Below are positions 11,001 through 62,360 of a DNA stretch of 64,000 bases, in pieces (the stretch's first letter is position 1; each line of letters opens with the position of its first letter). Below the pieces are notes generated by a model that ran no database searches, had not been told where the DNA came from, and saw nothing but the letters and a program-made list of their open reading frames with translations. This stretch comes from Conchocele bisecta. Its lineage: Eukaryota; Mollusca; Bivalvia; Lucinida; Thyasiridae. The DNA lies in contig CM055265.1 in the NCBI GenBank assembly GCA_029237695.1, positions 216,927,679 to 216,991,678 of the forward strand. Reading direction: 5' to 3'. The position numbers were made by a program, and so were the translations under genes.

Positions 11001-14000
11001 AGGATTAATGTAATAATAATTCCAGCACAAAAATATTTAAAATCCCAGTAAACTCCCACGCCGAACTACTCTCCGTAACCGTGAGGCGCAGTTAAAATAA
11101 TTCTTAAGAAAACGGAAAAAAACATATTTTCCAAGTTCATACCCCGATAAATTCCACAAAAAGGCCATTCATTCCTATAATAACCAATAGGATAAAAATA
11201 AAGTATTGGCGATCAAAAATTACAAAAAAAAATTTCTTGAAAATTGTAATTTTTTATCGCCAATTCTTTATTTTTATCGCCAATTGCGAAAGTGGCTTTT
11301 CCAAGTTTATACCCCGATACATTCCACAAAAAGGCCATTCATTCCTATAATAACAAAATTTACCATGGAACAATCAATGTCAGATATTTCGGGGTTAAAG
11401 TGTTAACATGCATGAAATGGTGGTAAAGATAGATACCTCGTTTTCCGCCGCCGCCCATCTTCATTTTGCGGGGACACTTGGGGAAGCAGCAGGGGACCTG
11501 GGCGGGGCACAGTTTGAGCCCGTCGGGCACAGGGCCCAGCAGGGTGACGGGCTTCATGAGGCCCTCGCTGTCACACTGGGCCGTCTTCATGTCCGAGTAC
11601 TGGCAGCCTGTAATATAGGGTTGGGGTATTTAACCCGGGATACAGACATAATCCCCACCCCATGATTTTTGACACAGGAGGACAAAATCCCTCCCCTGTT
11701 TAAAATGCAGGTAGGACAAAATCCCCCCCCCCCCATCAATATGTTTTGAAAGAATCATTGCATTAATTGGTTTTCAAATTTCACCCTCTAATCCTCTTTA
11801 ATCAGGGTAATTGAATTGTAGTAGTTGATTAAGGATTACGTTTTATTAAAACAAACAGAAATGAATGATTGTTACAGGATTTACCTAGTATCGTTTTGAC
11901 GAATAATTCTTTGAAATGGTAATCGATTCCTCACTAAATGGTTTGGGACCTACATCAGTATACAAATGTACAATCGATACATACATATTCTTGTTCGACG
12001 TTCATTGTGCAACTGAAAATACTTTATTAAATGTCCTTCTGTGTCAAAAATCATGGGGGGGGGGGGGGAATTATGTCCGGGGGGGATTTTGTCCTACACT
12101 CATTTAACCCATTAAGACGGGATACAATTATAGTAGTATGAAATTGTTAAGAGAAAAAACTCCATATTTTCTTTATTTCATCTCGAAAGTATGTGTTGTT
12201 ACCACTCATTTGAACCATCTTGACAAGACAGCTCAAATGAATGATAACAACATATACAACATGTACCTTTATGCAGAAACAAACAAATTATTGAGATTTT
12301 TTGTTAATTTTTTTTTTATGGTATCCTTAGACTGAAATGGGTTAAACATGAACAGGTAAACTATGATATTTACTGTCACACTGAGCTGTCATCATGTCGC
12401 GAGTATGGACACAAGCGGACTTGATTGACTGATGGATTGGGGTTTTATGTCTGTCCAACAGATGGGAATACGTCTGTATGACGAGAGCTCCATACATGTC
12501 CACTCCGCACTATAATTTGCAACTAAATATTATGTTTATTAACCCTTTCAACCCTAAGGAACTGGAATGGACTGTGATATGCTAATGTTCCGACCAATCC
12601 AATGGTCACAAAATGATTTTCAGATTTGTCCATTTATGAAAAGGGGGTGTTTTTGTTTGTTCTAAGAAATATTACAAGAGCTCCGCAGAGCAAAATGTCC
12701 CACCTGGCGCAGTTTGATAGTATATATGGAGCTTGTAATAACCTTGGGGTTAGTGAGCACCATGGGCTTTCTGTAGAATGATGTGGGATGTTGTTACAAA
12801 TGCATGTATGGAATATTAAAACATAAACTGAGCGTTAACTTTTCCAAACACGTAAATTTCTAAGTCAGTGACCTTGACCTTTGGGGTTAGCGGGCACCAT
12901 GGGCTTTCTGTAGAATGATGCGGGATGTTGCTACAAATGCATGTATGGAATATAAAAGCATAAACTGAGCGTTAATATTTCCAAACACGTAAATTTCTAA
13001 GTCAGTGACCTTGACCTTTGGGGTTAGCGGGCACCATGTGCTTTCTGTAGAATGATGTGGGATGTTGTTACAAATGCATGTATGGAATATTAAAGCATAA
13101 ACTGAGCGTTAATTTGTAAGTCAGTGACCTTGACCTTGGGGTTAGCGGGCACCATGTGCTTTCTGTAGAATGATGTGGGATGTTGTTACAAATGCATATA
13201 TGGAATATTAAAGCATAAACTGAGCGTTAACTTTTCCAAAACACGGAAATTTCTAATTCAGTGACCTTGACCTTTGGGGAGGGGTTAGCGGGCACCATGG
13301 GTTTTCTGTAGAATGATGCGGGATGTTGTTACAAATGCATATATGGCATATTAAAACATAAACTGAGCGCTAAAACTGAGCGTTAACTTTTCCAAACACG
13401 GAAATTTCTAAGTCAGCGACCTTGACCTTTGGGGTTTGCGAGCACCATGGGCTTTCTGTAGAATGATGCGGGATGTTGTTACAAAAGCATGTATGGAATA
13501 TTAAAGCATAAACTGAGCGTTAACTTTTCCAAACACGGAAATTTCTAAGTCAGCGACCTTGTCCTTTGCGGTTTGCGGGCACCATGGGCTTTCTGTAGAA
13601 TGATGCGGGATGTTGTTACAAATGCATGCATGGAATATTAAAGCATACATAAATTGAGCGTTAACTTTTCCAAACACGGAAATTTCTAAGTCAGTGACCT
13701 TGACCTTTGGGTTTGCGGGCACCATGGGATTTCTGTAGAATGATGCGGGATGTTGTTACAAATGCATGTATGGAATATTAAAGCATAAACTGAGCGTTAA
13801 CTTTTCCAAACACGGAAATTTCTAAGTCAGCGACCTTGACCTTTGGGGTTAGCGGGTATCATAGGCTTTCTGGAGAATGATGCGGGATGTTGTTACAAAT
13901 GCATGTATGGAATATTAAAGCATTCCATTGAGGGAAACAGAAGTTACAATGAATTAACCTGAGCGCTAAGTTTTAGAAACAGAGCTAAACGCAAAAACTG

Positions 14001-35405: not shown

Positions 35406-36097
35406 CAGAAACACATATATAATTTATATTGGCCTAATCTTCAGCACTTGACACACTGTCTGACAGGAAACTGGGTTAGTGGCACAGTCTCAAGTCCCAA
35501 GATGCGGTAATGACCTGTAATAGCGTAGACCTGTGTTTACCACCCTACCACCTAGTAGACAAGACAAATAATTGTATAATGAAAAAGTTCTGTCGGCATT
35601 TTTTAGTAAAAGTGGTACGTCTAACTTTTTAACATAATTCGAGTATGCTGAATCCAAAAATGGCGGATACCACGAAGAATTTTGAGGCAAAAGGCTTCTA
35701 ATTTGAAAAACAAAATGGCCGCCAAATTTTCATTTTTTTATTTTTCTAAAATGTATTTAAGTGGTATTATGGTACCAGTATAAGCAATTCAGTGGCAAAA
35801 GAGTAATCAGATTGTTTTTTTTTCTCTGTCATTCACTAAAGTTGGTATATGTGAGCAGTTGCAATACTATGGCTTGTATATTGGTATAGTGATTAAATAC
35901 ACCACAATGATGTACTAAATATTCCTTTTTCTATTGGAAAATATGTTTGAATGCTAATACATAATATTGAACGCAAATGATATGCCATGTGTAACATGCA
36001 TGTATTACACAGTTAAGGAACCTAGACAAATATTATTTAAATCAGTCACCATTGTTGATTTCTCCAGTAATGAAACTATGCGTCTTTCGAACTAAAT

Positions 36098-36390
36098 CGG
36101 CCCCCACATATCGGTCGCGGCACCGGCCCGACTCGTAAAACCACAGGTGAAAGAATCGTACCTGTGATATTAAATTATGTACAGGTCCATTAAGAATGCT
36201 TACATACTACAAGTAACCCAAAATAGCATCGCGTGTAGAGACATTTTTTGCCAGCTATCATTAATTTTGATTATTTGTAGTTTATAAGCATTGTCAATGG
36301 ACTTGTACTTAATTTGATATCACAGGTACGCGTCCTTCACCTGTGGTTTTAGGAGTCGCCCGGATGCCGCGACCGATATGTGACATGCTG
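36098..36390. mobile_element. Foldback MITE nested in the CXC transposon
   Basis: CACATATCGGTCGCGGCACC with AAAACCACAGGTGAAAGA and TACCTGTGATAT is inverted as ATATCACAGGTACGCG, TTCACCTGTGGTTTTAGGA and GCCGCGACCGATATGTG. About 290 bp. Confidence 0.75.
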
Positions 36391-36463
36391 GATGACTGTG
36401 TGCTCTGTGTGATACATGTACATCTAATCCACTATAAACCGATTCACAACCCGAAATGTCAGT

Positions 36464-38790
36464 TTAGATTATGTTCATACATGGGTTTGCATCACCGCCA
36501 TGAGCCTTACAACTACACAAAGCTGTGCAACGTAGACCAGACTTGCGACATTTGCAGCGCATGGTCTTACACTGCATATGACATGAACAGGATATCATTT
36601 CCAGACATGCCGCTGGAATAGGATCCAACGTCATAAGGATGGGTACAAAGCCATCGTCACTGCGCTCCCACCCCATAGTGTCTGGCGCAGGAAGCTCCGA
36701 TATGGCAGTGTCAGCCTGCCTCCAGATCATAGACTGATAATGTACTCGCATTATGTGAAAGCGGAGAGCATCACTTGTTGGTGGCAATGCATCAGGCTTT
36801 ACTGACTTTGAGAACAAGTGATATCTCGCTGTGTCAATAGAATCGGTTTGAGGCACGTTGTAGATTCTACACAGAAACTTCTCTGCAGATTTGAGATTGC
36901 CTGCGTGAACTCTCCTTCACCAAAATCAACGAGTAGCTCGTGGTTGCATTTGAACACTTTCCATGCTGTTCGTTTGGTGTGACCTGAAAGGTAAGATGTC
37001 GTGTCACAGCCTGTGAGAGCATGGAATGGCAGTAGCGATGCTGCTAATTGTGGTGTGAGGCTATCGAACACTCGCCCTATAGGTATATAGCGCCGTTTCT
37101 TTGATGTGCCAGTCATCATAAACATGCGCATACACTGTGAACGTGGGAAGTGTGCTATGAGTAGCAACAGTACGTCCGTGTCCCTCTAGGCCACAACGAC
37201 AGTATCAAACTGGCTATGGACAGCATGAAGAACAAGCCGTGTATCAGCTTCTTCGTGCGTTGCACTTAGCAGCGTTACATCCGTTGCATCGTTTGATGCC
37301 CGTACTTCAAGTTCGTCAGCAAACCCACCAGCTACAACTATGTCCTTATCGTGTGGGGCATTGACAAGTAGTTCCTCAGACAGGAATCTAGCAAGATCAG
37401 CTTTGTTTGCGGGAAGTGCCATGAAGTTTTCCCAGTTTTTTGGCAAGGGTACATCACAACTTTCCACAATGCGTCTGATAGGCTGAGCAGCCTTTGTTCG
37501 CCGAGCCCTAGTGCTTGTCTTAATAGACATTTTCCTGTACCGGTCAAAGACAATGTCTATTCTCTGGTACTTAGATCCAGTATGTAGCACTGATTTGACA
37601 AATACATCGGCTAGATCACCGAAGCTTTTTGCAGTAGCAGGTTTGCCAATGGCAACGACAAGTGCTTGACCATCAATGATGAGACATGATGAGTGATCAT
37701 GAAGTTCAACGGTTTCGGGACAGTCAATGCCTTGGGTTACCAAGTCTGATAATACACTCTTGTTTCCGGTACGGAGTGTGCCATTTAGTTCCGCAATTGA
37801 TAGAGGAACTGGCAGGAGTTCATTCTCAAGAATGCTGGGCATATCAACTTGGCGATCGGCTTCGAAGGCAGTGACCAACCGTTGAAGAACACTCCTGTCT
37901 GCCTTCATGACATGTTTTTGGTCTTTAGATCTGGTGTATACAATGACGCAAATGTCGGCGCATTGTTTCTAGCTAAGGGGTCATGTAGTGACATGCTTGG
38001 ATTGGCACCCTCAGTGACAACCAGTCTCTCCTGCACAAATACTTGCAACTGTGCCATGCCACGGCATTTGGCATTTAGTAATGATTCTCGTATTACTTCC
38101 GTTGCAATGTCTTTGTTTGCAATGTTTTGCAGAGTAGTACGTTCGGTTCCAGGTGTGAACACCCCAAATCTCTGGAACGTACCGAGCAATGCCTCTTCAT
38201 CAGCATTATCTCACTTTTTGCGGGATTTGGTGCTCTCATTGTGACTTAGTTTCTCACATGAGTGCATCTGGAACATGTCGTATGTCTCTACTGCAATGTG
38301 AGACCTCAGGTTGTAAGAGAGTGTCCATCTAGGTAAGGTGGAGGTAGTCTTTGTAATGCCAACAATTCCACCACCCTTCTTGCCTACACCATTCAACCAC
38401 TCTTGAGCTTGATCAGGGTCTACTTGGTTGAATTTGCGTGCCGAACGCTTGACCACAAAGTTACCCTTTTCAAACTCTGTCAGTACCGGAGCAGGAAGCT
38501 GGTGCATTTCGGCCAGATATACTGGCCCCCATCTGGCATAGTTGTAGTGGTCGTAGCGCATAAAATATGGCAACATCATCCCGAACGACTGCAGATGGAG
38601 GTTCCAGATACCATCACGCTGTGCACAGGTGAATAGCAGGAGTATGGCTGCCATGTCGATGTATTTCCACCAGAAGGACACATTTGCATGCTCACCCGAT
38701 TGACTGGCAACAAACTCATCGAGTGGCTTCTGAACGCGCGCTCCTGTCATGTATGGTGCACAGTCAGTGTCATTGAATGTTAGGACTTTT
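36464..38790 (-). pseudogene. HEEADTR / GCDTTS / CXC-domain protein of an uncharacterised invertebrate multicopy family, broken
   Basis: On the minus strand, homologous-looking blocks run in order. An N-terminal block (38790-38214) includes FWWKYIDMAAILLLFTCAQR and PVYLAEMHQLP. A middle block (38189-37189) includes SCLIIDGQALV and ATHEEADTRLVLHA. Then come RDTDVLLLLIAH and FHALTGCDTTSYLSGHTKRT (37185-36960). A C-terminal Tesmin/TSO1-like CXC cluster (CSCHMQCKTMRCKCRKSGLR and on to CSCKAH) ends at 36464. The acidic DTD and GCDTTS motifs suggest a PIN/FEN-like nuclease fold (inference). Breaks: in-frame TGA at 38213-38211, frameshift near 37910-37925 next to an A-run, in-frame TAG at 37188-37186, and frameshift near 36860-36895. 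It lies inside a long-TIR element, so it is probably a transposon protein. Confidence 0.7.
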
Positions 38791-39433
38791 TTTCTGTGGT
38801 TGTTATATCGATGAACTACCGTTTACAATATCAATCGCTTATGAAGGAATATGTTCAGGGTCAAAAGCTAAATAGCCTAGCCTAATAGGATTTAAAGGTT
38901 CATGGAGCCTGGAATATGCCATCAGTGTTGTTCCACCGTCATCGCCGATATATATGGCAAACAAAACAATGTTGTACACCTCTATAGTAACAATACTGTA
39001 GCATGTATTGCACCAATACTTAGTTGGTTCACTAACATGTTCTTGGTATGGGCTCACATTATCTCACCAGAACTATTAATAAAATATATACACATTTCTT
39101 TCTTTTTTTCGCAAAAAAATGACAAATTATTCAGATATTTTGTGAATATTTTTAGTTGTAAGCATACACAAATCCTTTGTAATGTATTGCACAACCCCTA
39201 TAACGTTATTTGCATGTTCATTTGCATACAATTTGCTTACAATAATGCACTCATTCAATTCAACTAAGACCAGGAAAGGCGAAACAAAAAAAGATTGGCC
39301 GCCATTTTGTTTTTGCAAATTTGAAGCCTTTATCCTCATTTTTTTTCGTGGTATCCACCATTTTTGGATTCAGCATACTCGAATTATGTTAAAATGTTGG
39401 ACGTACCACTTTTACTAAAAAATGCCGACAGAA

Positions 39434-39744
39434 GTTTCATTTCTTGAAATGCCGACTAGTCTATAGCATTAGGACCGCGAGTACTGCCGGTCTAGATGTT
39501 CATGAGCCAATACAAAACTCTAAACAACAAGCGTGGTGAAGTTGTGCAGCAGAAATCAATGTTTTATTTCTGGGCTGGCAATTACTTTGCCTACACATAC
39601 AATGTGACATACAATGTGGTTTCTGTCATCAACTACCAGCATTCTGACAATGGCATCTTGCTGTTGTCATTCATGTTTTCGTCCATTACATGCTGATGCT
39701 ACACAACTTTTTGTATGAAAACATAATAAAATAAATTCTCTTAT
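39434..39744. other. No recognisable gene
   Basis: A 66-codon frame at 39496-39696 has no recognisable domain. Nothing else supportable. Confidence 0.35.
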
Positions 39745-40175
39745 CCCTTACACCGCTATATCTTTTGTTGTCTGCTGCTTATTTTCCATTTTTATCACCA
39801 AAAACATGCTTTGACAGCACTTTAGAATCATTTCCGACATGCTTTGACAGCACTTTAGAATCATTTCATAATGAAATGATTCTAAAGTGCTGTTAAACCA
39901 TGTTTTTATTGAGAAACAAGGCTACATATAAAGCAACAACAGATGACATTGTTGTGTGTAGTGGTCTAACGGCTAATTATGCATAGAAGCATATGTTGTG
40001 ACCACTCATTGGAACTGTCTCAGCGAGACGGTTCAAATGAGTGGTCACAACATATACATTTGAGAAATAAGAAAAATAGTGAAAATTATTGCACTTTGTT
40101 CATTACCACGTATAGGTCATGTTCACAGGGTACGGAGTTTACAAAGTAAGAGAAACAGGTTAACCATTTCATCCT
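39745..40175. mobile_element. Degenerate family P MITE and ACCACTCATTGGAAC hairpin element
   Basis: 39745-39970 has the family P core (ACAGCACTTTAGAATCATTT) with an internal duplication of the arm. 40003-40065 is a hairpin TGTTGTGACCACTCATTGGA with its inverse, shared with 12190 and 23945. Confidence 0.65.
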
Positions 40176-57266: not shown

Positions 57267-57462
57267 GCACCCTATTAGATATAAGAAATCCATTGGTTAT
57301 ACTCACTATATATGACAATCTGTCATAAATATCGGCAACTAACACCCTATTAGAGATAAGAAATCCATTGGTTATACTCAGTATATATATGACAATCTGT
57401 CATATATATTGGCAACTTACACCCTATTAGAGACAAGAATTCCCTTGGTTATACTCAGTATA
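57267..57462 (+). repeat. 75-77-bp tandem repeat immediately upstream of the polymerase ATG
   Basis: About 2.5 copies starting at 57268, 57343 and 57420 (CACCCTATTAGAGATAAGAA, ATTGGTTATACTCAGTATAT, ATGACAATCTGTCATATATA). Each full unit has the dyad ATATGACAATCTGTCATAT. The last copy runs straight into the ATG at 57463, so the repeat may act as promoter or 5' leader (inference). Confidence 0.75.
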
Positions 57463-58308
57463 ATGTCTACCATAAAGCAAATGAGAGAGCAAGCTAAGAG
57501 TTGGGAAATTTCCCTAAGAGGTTTGAGATTCAAGAAAGATATAGCAGATAGGATAAGTGACGCGCGAGCCGTCGTCTACGAGGAGAGGCTGCGGCGTGCG
57601 GTTTCGACCGGACGACTGCCTGCCGACCCCGAAAAACGATCCGAGAAATTGGAGAACGAGACGACAGCCAGTCTGCGTGCCACCGCTTACGCGCAGCGTG
57701 TAAAAGAAGATCCCAGCGAGCGCAGAAAACCACTATGCAAAGCGTACTATAATAAGATTTATCAAGGCCTGGTGGAGAGCCCTCCTAAGAGTAGGAGACA
57801 GCTCGCCAGATATTTGGTGGAGGAGGGTCCCAGGATTCTCGCCGAAGAAGCCGAAGTTAGGGAAACTGTTGATAGGGGTAGGAGGAAGATAGTATGGACT
57901 TTCGAGAGGGGGGTAGATGGGGAGATCGCGAATCGCATAATGAATAAAATTCGCCCAGAGATGACCACGGCGTGTTATCTGAGGTATTCGTGTTCTTATC
58001 ATATTAGGAACATCGAGACCGACGAAACGATGATCTATCACAAACAATCAAAGGGCAGTCCGTGGATAAACGAGATCGCCAAAGCCGAGAGTTGGATATC
58101 CGATAGAGAGAAAGGTCGAATGGACATCGACAAAGTTGATAGACCAAACACAAAATGGACCTTCGTTCGTTGGATATCGGTAGAGGTGAAGATGATCATC
58201 GATGCGCAACAACTTCTCATGGGAGCGGGAAAACAACCCGATTGGTTAAGACAGAAAAAGGGAAGTGCATTCCGTCGACACGTACGACGATTACTTGTGT
58301 CTGTTTAG
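57463..58308 (+). pseudogene. Polinton-like type B DNA polymerase, N-terminal extension (frameshifted from the rest)
   Basis: An open frame of 281 codons from ATG (MSTIKQMREQAKSW). It is Lys/Arg/Glu-rich and soluble, without membrane segments. The end (VEVKMIIDAQQLLMGAGKQP then DWLRQKKG) corresponds to the stretch that, in related invertebrate proteins, leads directly into the CLFRCIA segment found in the next frame at 58300. So this and 58268-59883 are one gene split by a single frameshift at about 58262-58270. The frame is clean and GC-richer than the flanks. The N-terminal function is unknown. It is a gene of a Polinton/Maverick- or adintovirus-related element; the true start could be this ATG. 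Confidence 0.65.
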
Positions 58309-59883
58309 GTGCATAGCCATCCATCGTGGAGGGAGAACCGACCGCTGTTGTGAGAAGGCACGAGCTCTGGCTCGCGAATACCTCGGTCACGATAACGGAC
58401 CGGGTTGTAAGGGAATCCCCCTGGACTCTCTTAGGAAGGTCGAAGAGCATTTCAAGCTGGGCATTCGCGTTTACGAGCCCACCACCGACGGAGTGTGGTA
58501 CCTAATGAAGTCTCCGGCAAATTACGACGCGGTTGGAGAGAAGACAATGACGATAGGAATGTTTGGAGGTCACTCGTTCCTCATAACGAACCTCCGCAAG
58601 ATGACGAACGAGTACGGGTGCTCCGGATGTCAACAACGGTTCACAAAGTCGTGCAACATGCACAAGCACGCGACCACCTGCATGGGTGGGAAGACCGTGG
58701 TGACATGTCCAGGTAAGAGGATAGAGAGACCGCAGTCGGCATACGAGAAGGCGTTCTATCCTAATGGGTCAGCGAGTGCGGTGTCGATTCAATGGTTGAG
58801 CAGAGAAGAGGAGAGGGTGGGAAAGCACATACATCACGCGAGATGCGGTCACGGCGGGGAGAGGTGGGTGGCCGGCGATCCGGTCGACGGCTACTGTCAC
58901 GAAATCAAGACCGTGTTTGAGTTTCACGGATGTTACTGGCACGGGTGTCCGACGCATTGCAGGAGAGGTAACGCGAGATCACTATACAGGAGGACGAAAC
59001 TCCAAGACGCCAAGATAAGGAAGGCGGGTTACGAGCTGGTGGTGATGTGGCATTGCGAGTGGTTGAATGAGGTGAATACCCACTATCCACAATCGCCGCG
59101 CGAGGAGGAGACGACTCTGTATCCTCACCAGATAGTCTACGACTTCGAGGCGTATCTCGACAAGTCGAAAACCACTCGACCCACCAAAGACCTGACCTTC
59201 GAGGTAGAGCACGTCCCTATACCGGTGTCGTTGGGGGATACGATGAACGAGGGGATCACACACATCTGCGAACGAGATCCCGACCCTCTGGTCGAGAAGT
59301 TCGTGACCGAGCTGCAGAGGAGAGGCAATGCAATCAGGGAGGGGGTTAGGAAGAAGTATCTGCCGGCCGACATAGAGATGCTGTCAAAACCTCAGCGAGA
59401 GAAGATCGTCTCATGGATCGACCAAGTCCCCGTGGTGGGGTTCAACTGCAGCAGGTACGACCTGAATCTCATCAAGCGGTACCTTGTTGAGAAGTTGGCG
59501 GCCACCGTGAATAAGGTGATGGTCGGAAAGAGAGCCAGCACGACGATGATTCTGTTTACCCCGGAGTTTAGATTTCTCGACATCATCCAGTATCTAGGAC
59601 CCGGTACCACGTATGACCGGTGGGTTAAGGCGTACGACTGTAAAACGGTAAAGTCTCACTTCCCGTATGAGTGGTTCGATAGCGCGGACAAGCTCGACCA
59701 TCCGGGATTGCCCGACTATCCTGAGTGGTACTCGAAGTTGAAGGGTGAGTTCCTACTGTCGTTGACAGAGTGGAAAGAGCGTAAGAAGGTATTCCGAGAA
59801 AAGGGGATGAAGACGTTCAAGGAATGGTTGCGACACTACAACGACCTGGAGGCTCTGACTAAAATGACGGAGTTCTACAGGGG
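58268..59883 (+). pseudogene. Polinton-like DNA polymerase B, nuclease-like and exonuclease part
   Basis: Continuous frame with, in order: DYLCLFRCIAIHRGG (about 58292), a C2H2-like finger CSGCQQRFTKSCNMHKHATTC-type segment (about 58618-58680, first residues CSGCQQRF), a HIHHARCGHGGERW segment, FEFHGCYWHGCPTHC (about 58917-58962, a cysteine-rich nuclease-like module typical of these polymerases), Exo I VYDFEAYLD (59138-59163), Exo II VVGFNCSRYDLNL (59431-59470) and an Exo III-like HYNDLEALTKM (59835-59868). These are the 3'-5' proofreading motifs of protein-primed family B polymerases that replicate linear element DNA. Homology stops at 59883, where a TG...CA insertion begins; the frame then runs 20 foreign codons to a stop at 59944. 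Confidence 0.8.
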
Positions 59884-62360
59884 TGTCAAGGTCATTACCA
59901 AAGTCAGGAATGATCTAGACAAATTGTCTCCCCTATTATCATAAGAACCAAGTATACTTCAATTGTTATGACGTTATGGCCAATATAGCTTGATCTGACG
60001 AACGAAAAGTGGTACAATGCAGTTGAAGTGTAAGGGATAGGCTAGCGTAGATAAGTACAAGTAGTCACTTAATCACTTATAATGTACACTATATTACATG
60101 GGGAACACACAGGAATACATGATACATTGATATGCGAACATCACTGTACTGTGCATGATACTATTCAATTACAAGGTTGTAAGCCAATCGACTGTTATAC
60201 TTTAACGCAACTTAAAAGCTATAGACGAATACACTCGGTATGTGGTATCTCAATGGTCCTGTAGTGGACAATACTATGAATGCACAAGTACTTTGATGAT
60301 CGCTAATCAAAGTGAAATAACATACAAGTACAACATGGCAGAACGAACATTGGAGGACAAATGACAATCATCTGAGCTACCCCAGTGCTGGCGTATCTCA
60401 ATAGATAGTGGTAACCTCTGAGTATCAATGTCCCAAGGTCTGCCTCACCCGCAGTATGAGGTCTAGTCACCAATATGGCTATTATCCGACTTTAAGTGGA
60501 TTAATCCATAAACAATATATGTAGTCTTACTACAATCCCTTAGCCATGATATGCCATGATAGGAGTATTACCATACACTATCAAAGTATACATGTGTATT
60601 GCCTATGCAATATATTTCCAAAGTATGAATGTCAAAGTCAAAGCCGGATGTGGTTACATCACATGATAGTCAATAACGATAATGTTCCGGAAGCTGTAAA
60701 GTTCCTATGGTATCACTCGACTGTAGTAACCCGGATGTGGTGGACCGGATGTAAAGTAACCATAGTGAATCAATGGGTTGTAATACCGGAAGTGGTAGAC
60801 CGGATGTAAAGTTCCGATATAATACAAATGGCGATTATCACGTTGGCTAAGACGCCGGGAAAAGTTTCACATGGGTGACATTCAACTCGGTGGTAGTATA
60901 ATGATATGATATGTATGTATGGCGTTTCACTTCACTAATCTATGGCTGTGACTGTCTGCTGAACACGATGTAGCTATCACAGACTGCTCTATACAGGCCT
61001 GTACCCGGAGCTGCTACACACACTGCGCCAGACAGACGTACGGACACTCGGACGACCCGGTACTCTGACTGATGGGGTCTGCCCTCCCTCAACGAGTGGA
61101 CCAAAAACGTCCAATGTGCCTCGCTGGAGCGATCTCAAGAGGCTACAAAAATGAAATGAGTCTCCAATTACTGGACGAATACGCACAGACAGACAGACAG
61201 GATGCACAACGGACTAAAACGGGAATCGAACAACGGCAAATCACAGCTGAAATAAAATGTTGTAGGTACATACCAAAATCCCCCGTGTCACTGGTGAATA
61301 CAGTACTATCCTTCTGTTACCAGAAAATATGTGTCCCACCAACACATAGCGTGACATCGCTTATATACGCACCAGTGAAACCATGCACGGAATAATGAAT
61401 ATGCCTACCCCTCGTTCGACATCTCACATAAATATTACAAAACCATGGCTTTTGCCATTTCACCCGTGGGTTATATTTGGCATAAATATATGTTTCCACG
61501 CCATAAATTCAACCAAACTAGTGTACAACCCTCGCGGAATAAATACCATCCAACATGGTATATCCCACACTACCATAAATCTGTACACTATAGACCCAGA
61601 TCTCATAATGCGAAATCTACTCGACTGGTCTCGACATGCGAAGGTCGCTTTTTGGCCCCGCCAAACCCTCCATATCGGTCCTACGGGCTGTACACTCAAA
61701 TGAGAGTGTAGCACATACTAAACTCAAATATCGTGGCAATTTACGGAAATATCACGACACAAAGCATCACCAGTATGGGATCTGATATATTCGTGTTGGC
61801 CAGTACCAGGCTATGCTGAAACACTAATCCGTAGCATACATAACAGGACAGACCATGGTGGTGGTCTGCGCTATATACTGGCTTCCCCTACAGAAGGTCC
61901 CTTATCTGGTGAACAACTGACCACGCGGACAAACTCGGCCGGCGACGGATAGTGGACATCCGTAATACTAAAAGGTCTTTTCCCTAGCGAAACCAGCACA
62001 CGCAGTCAACGAGTTCTCTACCACACACATGCATTAGTCTTGGTGGCAAATATGGCGTGACATCAGTAAAACAATTGGCTCATAAAATGGACGTGTATTT
62101 AAATCCGCAAAAAGGACACGCATAAACGTATTTTCACCAATACAACATAAGCCCCCTTATTACACGCACATTGTACATGGCAAATGTACATGCTAAATCT
62201 CAGGTATGTAAAAATCACAGGTGTGTGAAATCACAGGTATGTGGAATCACAGGTATGTGAAATCAATAGTACGCACAACAATACAACACAGTACCACACA
62301 TCACAAATATACAATTATACGGAAATTCGGAATGTACAAGAATGCACATGTCACGCGACA
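59884..62360. mobile_element. 2477-bp TG...CA insertion with 5-bp duplication, probable solo LTR
   Basis: It begins TGTCAAGGTCATTACC and ends CATGTCACGCGACA. AGGGG occurs on both sides (59879-59883 and 62361-62365). Ignoring the insertion and one AGGGG, the polymerase frame continues, which fixes both borders. TG...CA ends and 5-bp duplications are the LTR-retrotransposon hallmark. No gag/pol motifs and no internal copy of the termini were seen, so a long solo LTR is the best reading. Inside are three direct TATGT(G)AAATCACAGG units at 62200-62260 and PuPy-rich CAGACAGACAGACAGGATGC near 61190. Open frames here lack recognisable domains. Confidence 0.7.

Follow-up and report, generated by a model that had tools for sequence, protein, structure and literature searches.

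What is a decayed gene for a protein of the HEEADTR/GCDTTS/CXC type, enclosed between long inverted repeats, doing in the genome of the bivalve Conchocele bisecta? The locus lies in a stretch of 64,000 nucleotides (hereafter the window; positions 216,927,679 to 216,991,678 of contig CM055265.1, assembly GCA_029237695.1), from whose first letter all window coordinates are counted. An initial annotation had proposed that the locus represents an unnamed class of DNA transposon, with this protein as its recombinase or accessory nuclease. Our analysis makes it very probable that the locus is a defective, internally deleted cut-and-paste transposon of the Academ superfamily, belonging to the nuclease lineage of that superfamily, AcademX. 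The element and its boundaries are as follows:

35556..39463, no strand assigned: whole element, 3908 bp, read as an internally deleted copy; delimited by flank comparison among copies with both ends (20 of the 21 examined)
35556-35560 and 39459-39463: element termini, TAGAC and GTCTA respectively
35553..35555: left target-site duplication, TAG
39464..39466: right target-site duplication, TAG
35584..35739, plus strand: left inverted-repeat arm, 156 nt, 85% complementary to the right arm
39282..39437, minus strand: right inverted-repeat arm, 156 nt, 85% complementary to the left arm

The repeats originally taken for the ends of the element (35588-35728 and 39294-39433) are real and nested within the 156-nt arms, which have no further long match within the 64-kb window; the true termini, however, lie farther out, at 35556 and 39463. 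Flank comparison revealed that the sequence common to copies runs about 30 bp past the arms, ending at TAGAC on the left and at GTCTA on the right. A 5-bp duplication, AAGTT, directly outside CTGTCGGC was considered as the element end and ruled out because the sequence beyond it is shared among copies; the real ends are TAGAC...GTCTA.

Other copies were sought throughout the genome (1.89 Gb in 1196 contigs, the window being C1:216927679-216991678). The left 913 bases recur at many places, the main rows at 90-98% identity and one short row at 73%, and since 40 of 469 first-look candidates were scored this is a lower bound; the right end gave 40 matches at 92-100%, the window counted (40 of 159 candidates scored). 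Twenty of the 39 other left-end places scored were fetched as copies of 7.8-8.1 kb each. Both inverted-repeat arms are present in 19 of these and in the window, and part of the gene is present in all 20. Every one of the 20 complete copies (19 fetched plus the window), which span 3144 to 6899 bp, is flanked by an exact 3-bp direct duplication, in contrast to only 14 of 380 control pairings of left and right flanks taken from different copies. L011 was left out of this count, as no right end lay within the 7.8 kb fetched; L016 and L017 share their flanks, and the insertions that are independent therefore number 19.

For the empty-site comparison, the flanks of 20 insertions were joined with one 3-bp copy and compared with the 20 fetched loci and the window. 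The empty site of L019 matches three repeat units of its own locus without gaps (150/150, 97.3%), two further units matching with gaps. That of L013 matches, again gapless over 150/150 positions and at 92-93%, units 12859-13008 and 13407-13556 of a tandem array in the window and one unit in L013. These two empty sites confirm the ends and the 3-bp duplication; the remaining 18 of 20 insertions gave no gapless end-to-end match among the same loci. The mobility that had been supposed is thus borne out by the duplications, the common termini and the two empty sites, and copies elsewhere in the genome share ends and gene with a consistent duplication length, as the initial annotation had expected of a mobile element. 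The tandem array occupies 12859-13833 of the window, and its units match the empty site of L013, which lies at C1:189670690-189678500.

The association also holds from the side of the gene. Seven loci (L030-L036) were picked by a protein search of the genome with their repeats unseen (31 of 16260 candidates scored). Long inverted arms occur at all seven, and TAGAC...GTCTA with a matching 3-bp duplication at six; 41 TAGAC/GTCTA pairings around these loci were viewed, and the six matching ones each adjoin the arms. L034 has its inverted repeats, with damaged ends. Gene copies free of terminal inverted repeats, which the initial annotation had named as the finding that would speak against it, were therefore absent from this sample. 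Six of the loci match the homologue P0122 at 64-78% (pieces of at least 80 residues). L031 is a divergent relative, at 44-49%, so that ends and duplication length are shared beyond one family. In L019 and L030, among others, the gene span is almost complete. The statement that the element holds no other open reading frame was upheld in four longer copies, L030-L033 (5.8-6.8 kb), where a scan of stop-to-stop frames of at least 80 codons found a longest frame of 112 codons outside the gene.

Within the window copy, the gene is represented by the following features:

36464..38822, minus strand: gene remnant, in pieces 38822-38211, 38210-37905, 37968-37186, 37185-36799 and 36916-36464
38211..38822, minus strand: putative final part of the DDE region, carrying the conserved Glu (QEWLNG)
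36940..37761, minus strand: predicted FEN1/EXO1/XPG-type nuclease domain (IDGQAL, FDRY, HEEADTR, RDTDV, GCDTTS)
36506..36592, minus strand: CXC-like (Tesmin/TSO1-type) cysteine cluster, below the cut-off of PF03638, with Cys columns conserved in homologues

The remnant is equivalent to residues 766-1530 of the 1530-amino-acid (aa) P0122, with similarity to homologues starting near 38750-38774. The blocks WWKYIDMAAIL, THEEADTRL, RDTDVLLLL, ALTGCDTTSYLSGH and a Cys-rich C-terminus follow one another on the minus strand just as first described, and decay of the gene is evident from two in-frame stops and two frame changes; an in-frame TAG precedes RDTDV within the nuclease domain. A Pfam scan of the five open pieces in the window gave nothing above cut-off. 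The stretches bearing the first and second presumed catalytic Asp of the DDE region (D1 and D2) are missing. Since only the E-bearing end of the transposase half is retained, the locus is, to judge from its sequence, a deletion derivative that has lost the N-terminal half except for that end.

The intact architecture can be read from homologues, of which the remnant read-through as query retrieved 138 and residues 1-420 of P0012 retrieved 107, many being about 1530-1550 aa long. From the 204 proteins of both searches, 82 rows were chosen for alignment; the main conservation counts refer to the 40 rows of at least 1380 aa, which leaves out P0204 (1336 aa). Two N-terminal Cys/His groups (C18, C21, H78, C81 and C129, C132, H180, C183, P0122 numbering) are conserved in 37-39 of the 40. 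D44, D47, D209, H238 and E450 (P0012 numbering) are each present in 40/40 long homologues; across the 82 rows D44 is found in 57/57 rows with a letter, D47 in 56/57, D209 in 70/70, H238 in 71/71 and E450 in 82/82. The nuclease acids D694, E834, E835, D837, D858, D860 and D917 are each present in 39/40 and D737 in 40/40, the corresponding counts over 82 rows being 78 (D694), 78 (D737), 73 (E834), 73 (E835), 72 (D837), 77 (D858), 70 (D860) and 72 (D917). At the C-terminus, nine of ten Cys columns are conserved in 36-37 of the 40. The nuclease part and the DDE core are conserved to a similar degree, with mean column identities over the long rows of 0.601 and 0.598 respectively.

On the predicted elements, the first strand bears D44 and D47, D209 follows directly after a later strand, and E450 sits in a helix beyond a long helical insert; an RNase H-like DDE enzyme carrying a helical insertion would be expected to show this order. 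The N-terminal region looks like a DDE-type domain of RNase H-like element order, D-D-E being recognised as a pattern in the long homologues; the window copy holds the E part alone. In several homologues this region is overlapped by DUF6589 (PF20231), a Pfam family without assigned function.

The suggestion that the DTD/GCDTTS block is a PIN/FEN-type nuclease agrees with fold prediction, in which this part takes a FEN/PIN-type fold and, when compared with solved structures, matches members of that type at 8-16% identity in the fold-comparison rows listed. Comparison with solved structures at the level of sequence gave nothing significant, either for the nuclease piece or for either alignment. 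The acids presumably correspond to individual FEN1 residues, with which we match them by motif. As for the tail, PF03638 (Tesmin/TSO1 CXC) scores 11.4 bits in the window against a cut-off of 23.5 (E 0.42), and of 14 homologues three fall below cut-off and 11 have no match at E 1; by its Cys pattern the C-terminal cluster is CXC-like and not a filed Tesmin/TSO1 member.

Could the inverted repeats of another element merely flank the gene? The arms sit about 30 bp inside the real ends, and the boundary looked odd at first. Yet arms and gene recur together, in 19/20 and 20/20 fetched copies respectively and at 7/7 gene-first loci, and these samples refute a chance pairing; since both ends and the gene recur in other copies within this genome, we regard it as excluded for practical purposes. 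A different proposal makes the FEN-type nuclease the recombinase of an unnamed transposon class, with the N-terminal region only helping, and draws on the FEN-type fold with its acids and on the window copy, which retains the nuclease without D1 and D2. Here the claim fares badly: the long relatives carry a separate N-terminal D-D-E region in RNase H-like order (40/40), P0204 has D-D-E intact with several nuclease acids changed, and the absence of D1 and D2 is a deletion in the window copy, L019 and L030 being near-complete. The FEN/XPG enzymes described so far act by cutting flaps and bubbles, and none is known to perform strand transfer. A nuclease acting as the recombinase is thus very improbable.

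A separate superfamily outside Academ, likewise pairing a DDE enzyme with a FEN-type nuclease, is unlikely, if less so. It gains from the fact that the placement in Academ follows published description, and from the CXC tail and TAGAC termini, which are not among the Academ features described in the available parts of PMC10045372, PMC10294476 and PMC4455052. It is countered by the 3-bp duplication and encoded nuclease, which match AcademX as described in PMC10045372, and by the size of the 5.8-6.8-kb elements with long inverted repeats, near the mean of 5565 bp given for 100 curated bivalve Academ elements in PMC10294476. An unnamed class is probably the wrong description, a nuclease-encoding Academ lineage with 3-4-bp duplications having been published (PMC10045372); a new class is not established by our finding.

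Several observations weigh against our preferred assignment to AcademX. The placement follows published description (duplication length, nuclease, size) rather than an alignment of Academ proteins, and the copies examined are decayed. P0204, the most distant row at 21% identity, has its D-D-E intact and several nuclease acids altered, which speaks against the nuclease being required in every lineage. The nuclease domain takes up the structural match lists, so that none of the listed structures extends over the DDE part; a single RAG1 row appears, at probability 0.09, and the fold of this part is therefore backed by element order and conservation only. We give the lack of a DDE-type structure in these lists no weight as evidence. 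DUF6589 exceeds its cut-off in one of 14 homologues scanned (P0017, 37.6 bits versus 27), the other 13 being below cut-off or without match.

A tentative mechanism can be outlined. Full-length relatives make one long protein, whose N-terminal Cys/His modules and C-terminal CXC-like cluster may bind the element ends. The DDE domain would cut at TAGAC/GTCTA and join the ends to the target with a 3-bp stagger, which would in turn yield the 3-bp duplication, and the FEN1/XPG-type domain could trim flaps or branched structures while the element is being excised or once strands have been transferred. The window copy is unable to make the protein, and so either was mobilised only by enzyme from other copies or was deleted once inserted. 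It is tempting to speculate that two metal-dependent active sites cooperate within one protein, the DDE site cutting one strand and joining while the FEN/GEN1-like domain, as a required partner, cuts the other strand or resolves a branched intermediate. We consider this rather doubtful, P0204 with its altered nuclease acids counting against it; were it true, it would explain the differing duplication lengths of the nuclease and helicase Academ lineages.

One further feature lies inside the element:

36105..36382, no strand assigned: near-palindrome, 278 bp, with arms of 121 nt (84%), lying between the left inverted-repeat arm and the end of the gene

It is present at all 40 genomic places scored and therefore belongs to the transposon family; its computed folding energy is about -164 kcal/mol. 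L030 and L032 have a comparable near-palindrome on the opposite side of the gene. Beyond the right end of the element, 39786-39921 contains direct and inverted repeats in a nested arrangement (units of 31 nt, arms of 33-49 nt). Elsewhere in the window, 57343-59944 holds two overlapping long open frames of 321 and 564 codons, of which the second weakly resembles PF03175 (DNA polymerase type B, organellar and viral) at E 0.001, short of the cut-off; this is possibly another large mobile element.

A second large branch of the protein family is represented by P0203 (DNIDHN type), in which D-D-E, the nuclease acids and the Cys tail are likewise present. Among the best 120 of 427 matches to it, the source names are cnidarians, an annelid, amphioxus, fish and a crab, and the search, aimed at a helicase-bearing relative (AcademH), showed no helicase domain in the Pfam column of these 120 and so did not connect the two lineages. 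Three family members (P0001, P0025 and P0146) are filed under Sedimenticola sp. MAG, and a gene piece at a distant locus, L001, in a mussel gill-symbiont record was the sole match among the public contigs searched; these may represent host DNA carried over into assemblies of symbionts. The family was not found in viral contigs, nor in phage records searched with a 260-aa piece. In the open-licence literature we found no mention of HEEADTR or GCDTTS and no paper on DUF6589, and CXC domain, tesmin and transposase together gave nothing on the subject, judged by title.

The likely identity of the HEEADTR/GCDTTS/CXC animal proteins, a large and so far unnamed set, is that of transposases combining a DDE-type region with a FEN-type nuclease and a cysteine-rich tail, better handled as transposon genes than as host genes; exact termini and a duplication length are now available for testing the role of the nuclease. 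With the FEN1/EXO1/XPG/GEN1/T5 5'-nuclease superfamily, the nuclease part shares its predicted fold, its acid pattern (D, D, EE.D, D.D, D) and the strands adjacent to those acids; it differs in its low identity of 8-16% in the rows listed and in its fusion to a transposase-like region, and its activity is predicted only. The AcademX nuclease is of XPG type. The AcademX lineage of the Academ superfamily reportedly goes back to Kapitonov and Jurka (2010) and Kojima (2020). As described in PMC10045372, duplication length is tied to the enzyme encoded: AcademX, with a nuclease, makes duplications of 3 or 4 bp, and its sister lineage AcademH, with a helicase instead, makes 9 or 10 bp. The Conchocele element differs from AcademX, as far as the available parts of PMC10045372, PMC10294476 and PMC4455052 describe Academ, in its CXC tail and TAGAC termini, and the window copy differs in being deleted. 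It resembles AcademX in being an inverted-repeat DNA transposon of several kilobases, in the predicted FEN/XPG-type nuclease that shares one protein with the transposase, and in a duplication of 3 bp, found in 20/20 two-ended copies and at 6/7 gene-first loci.
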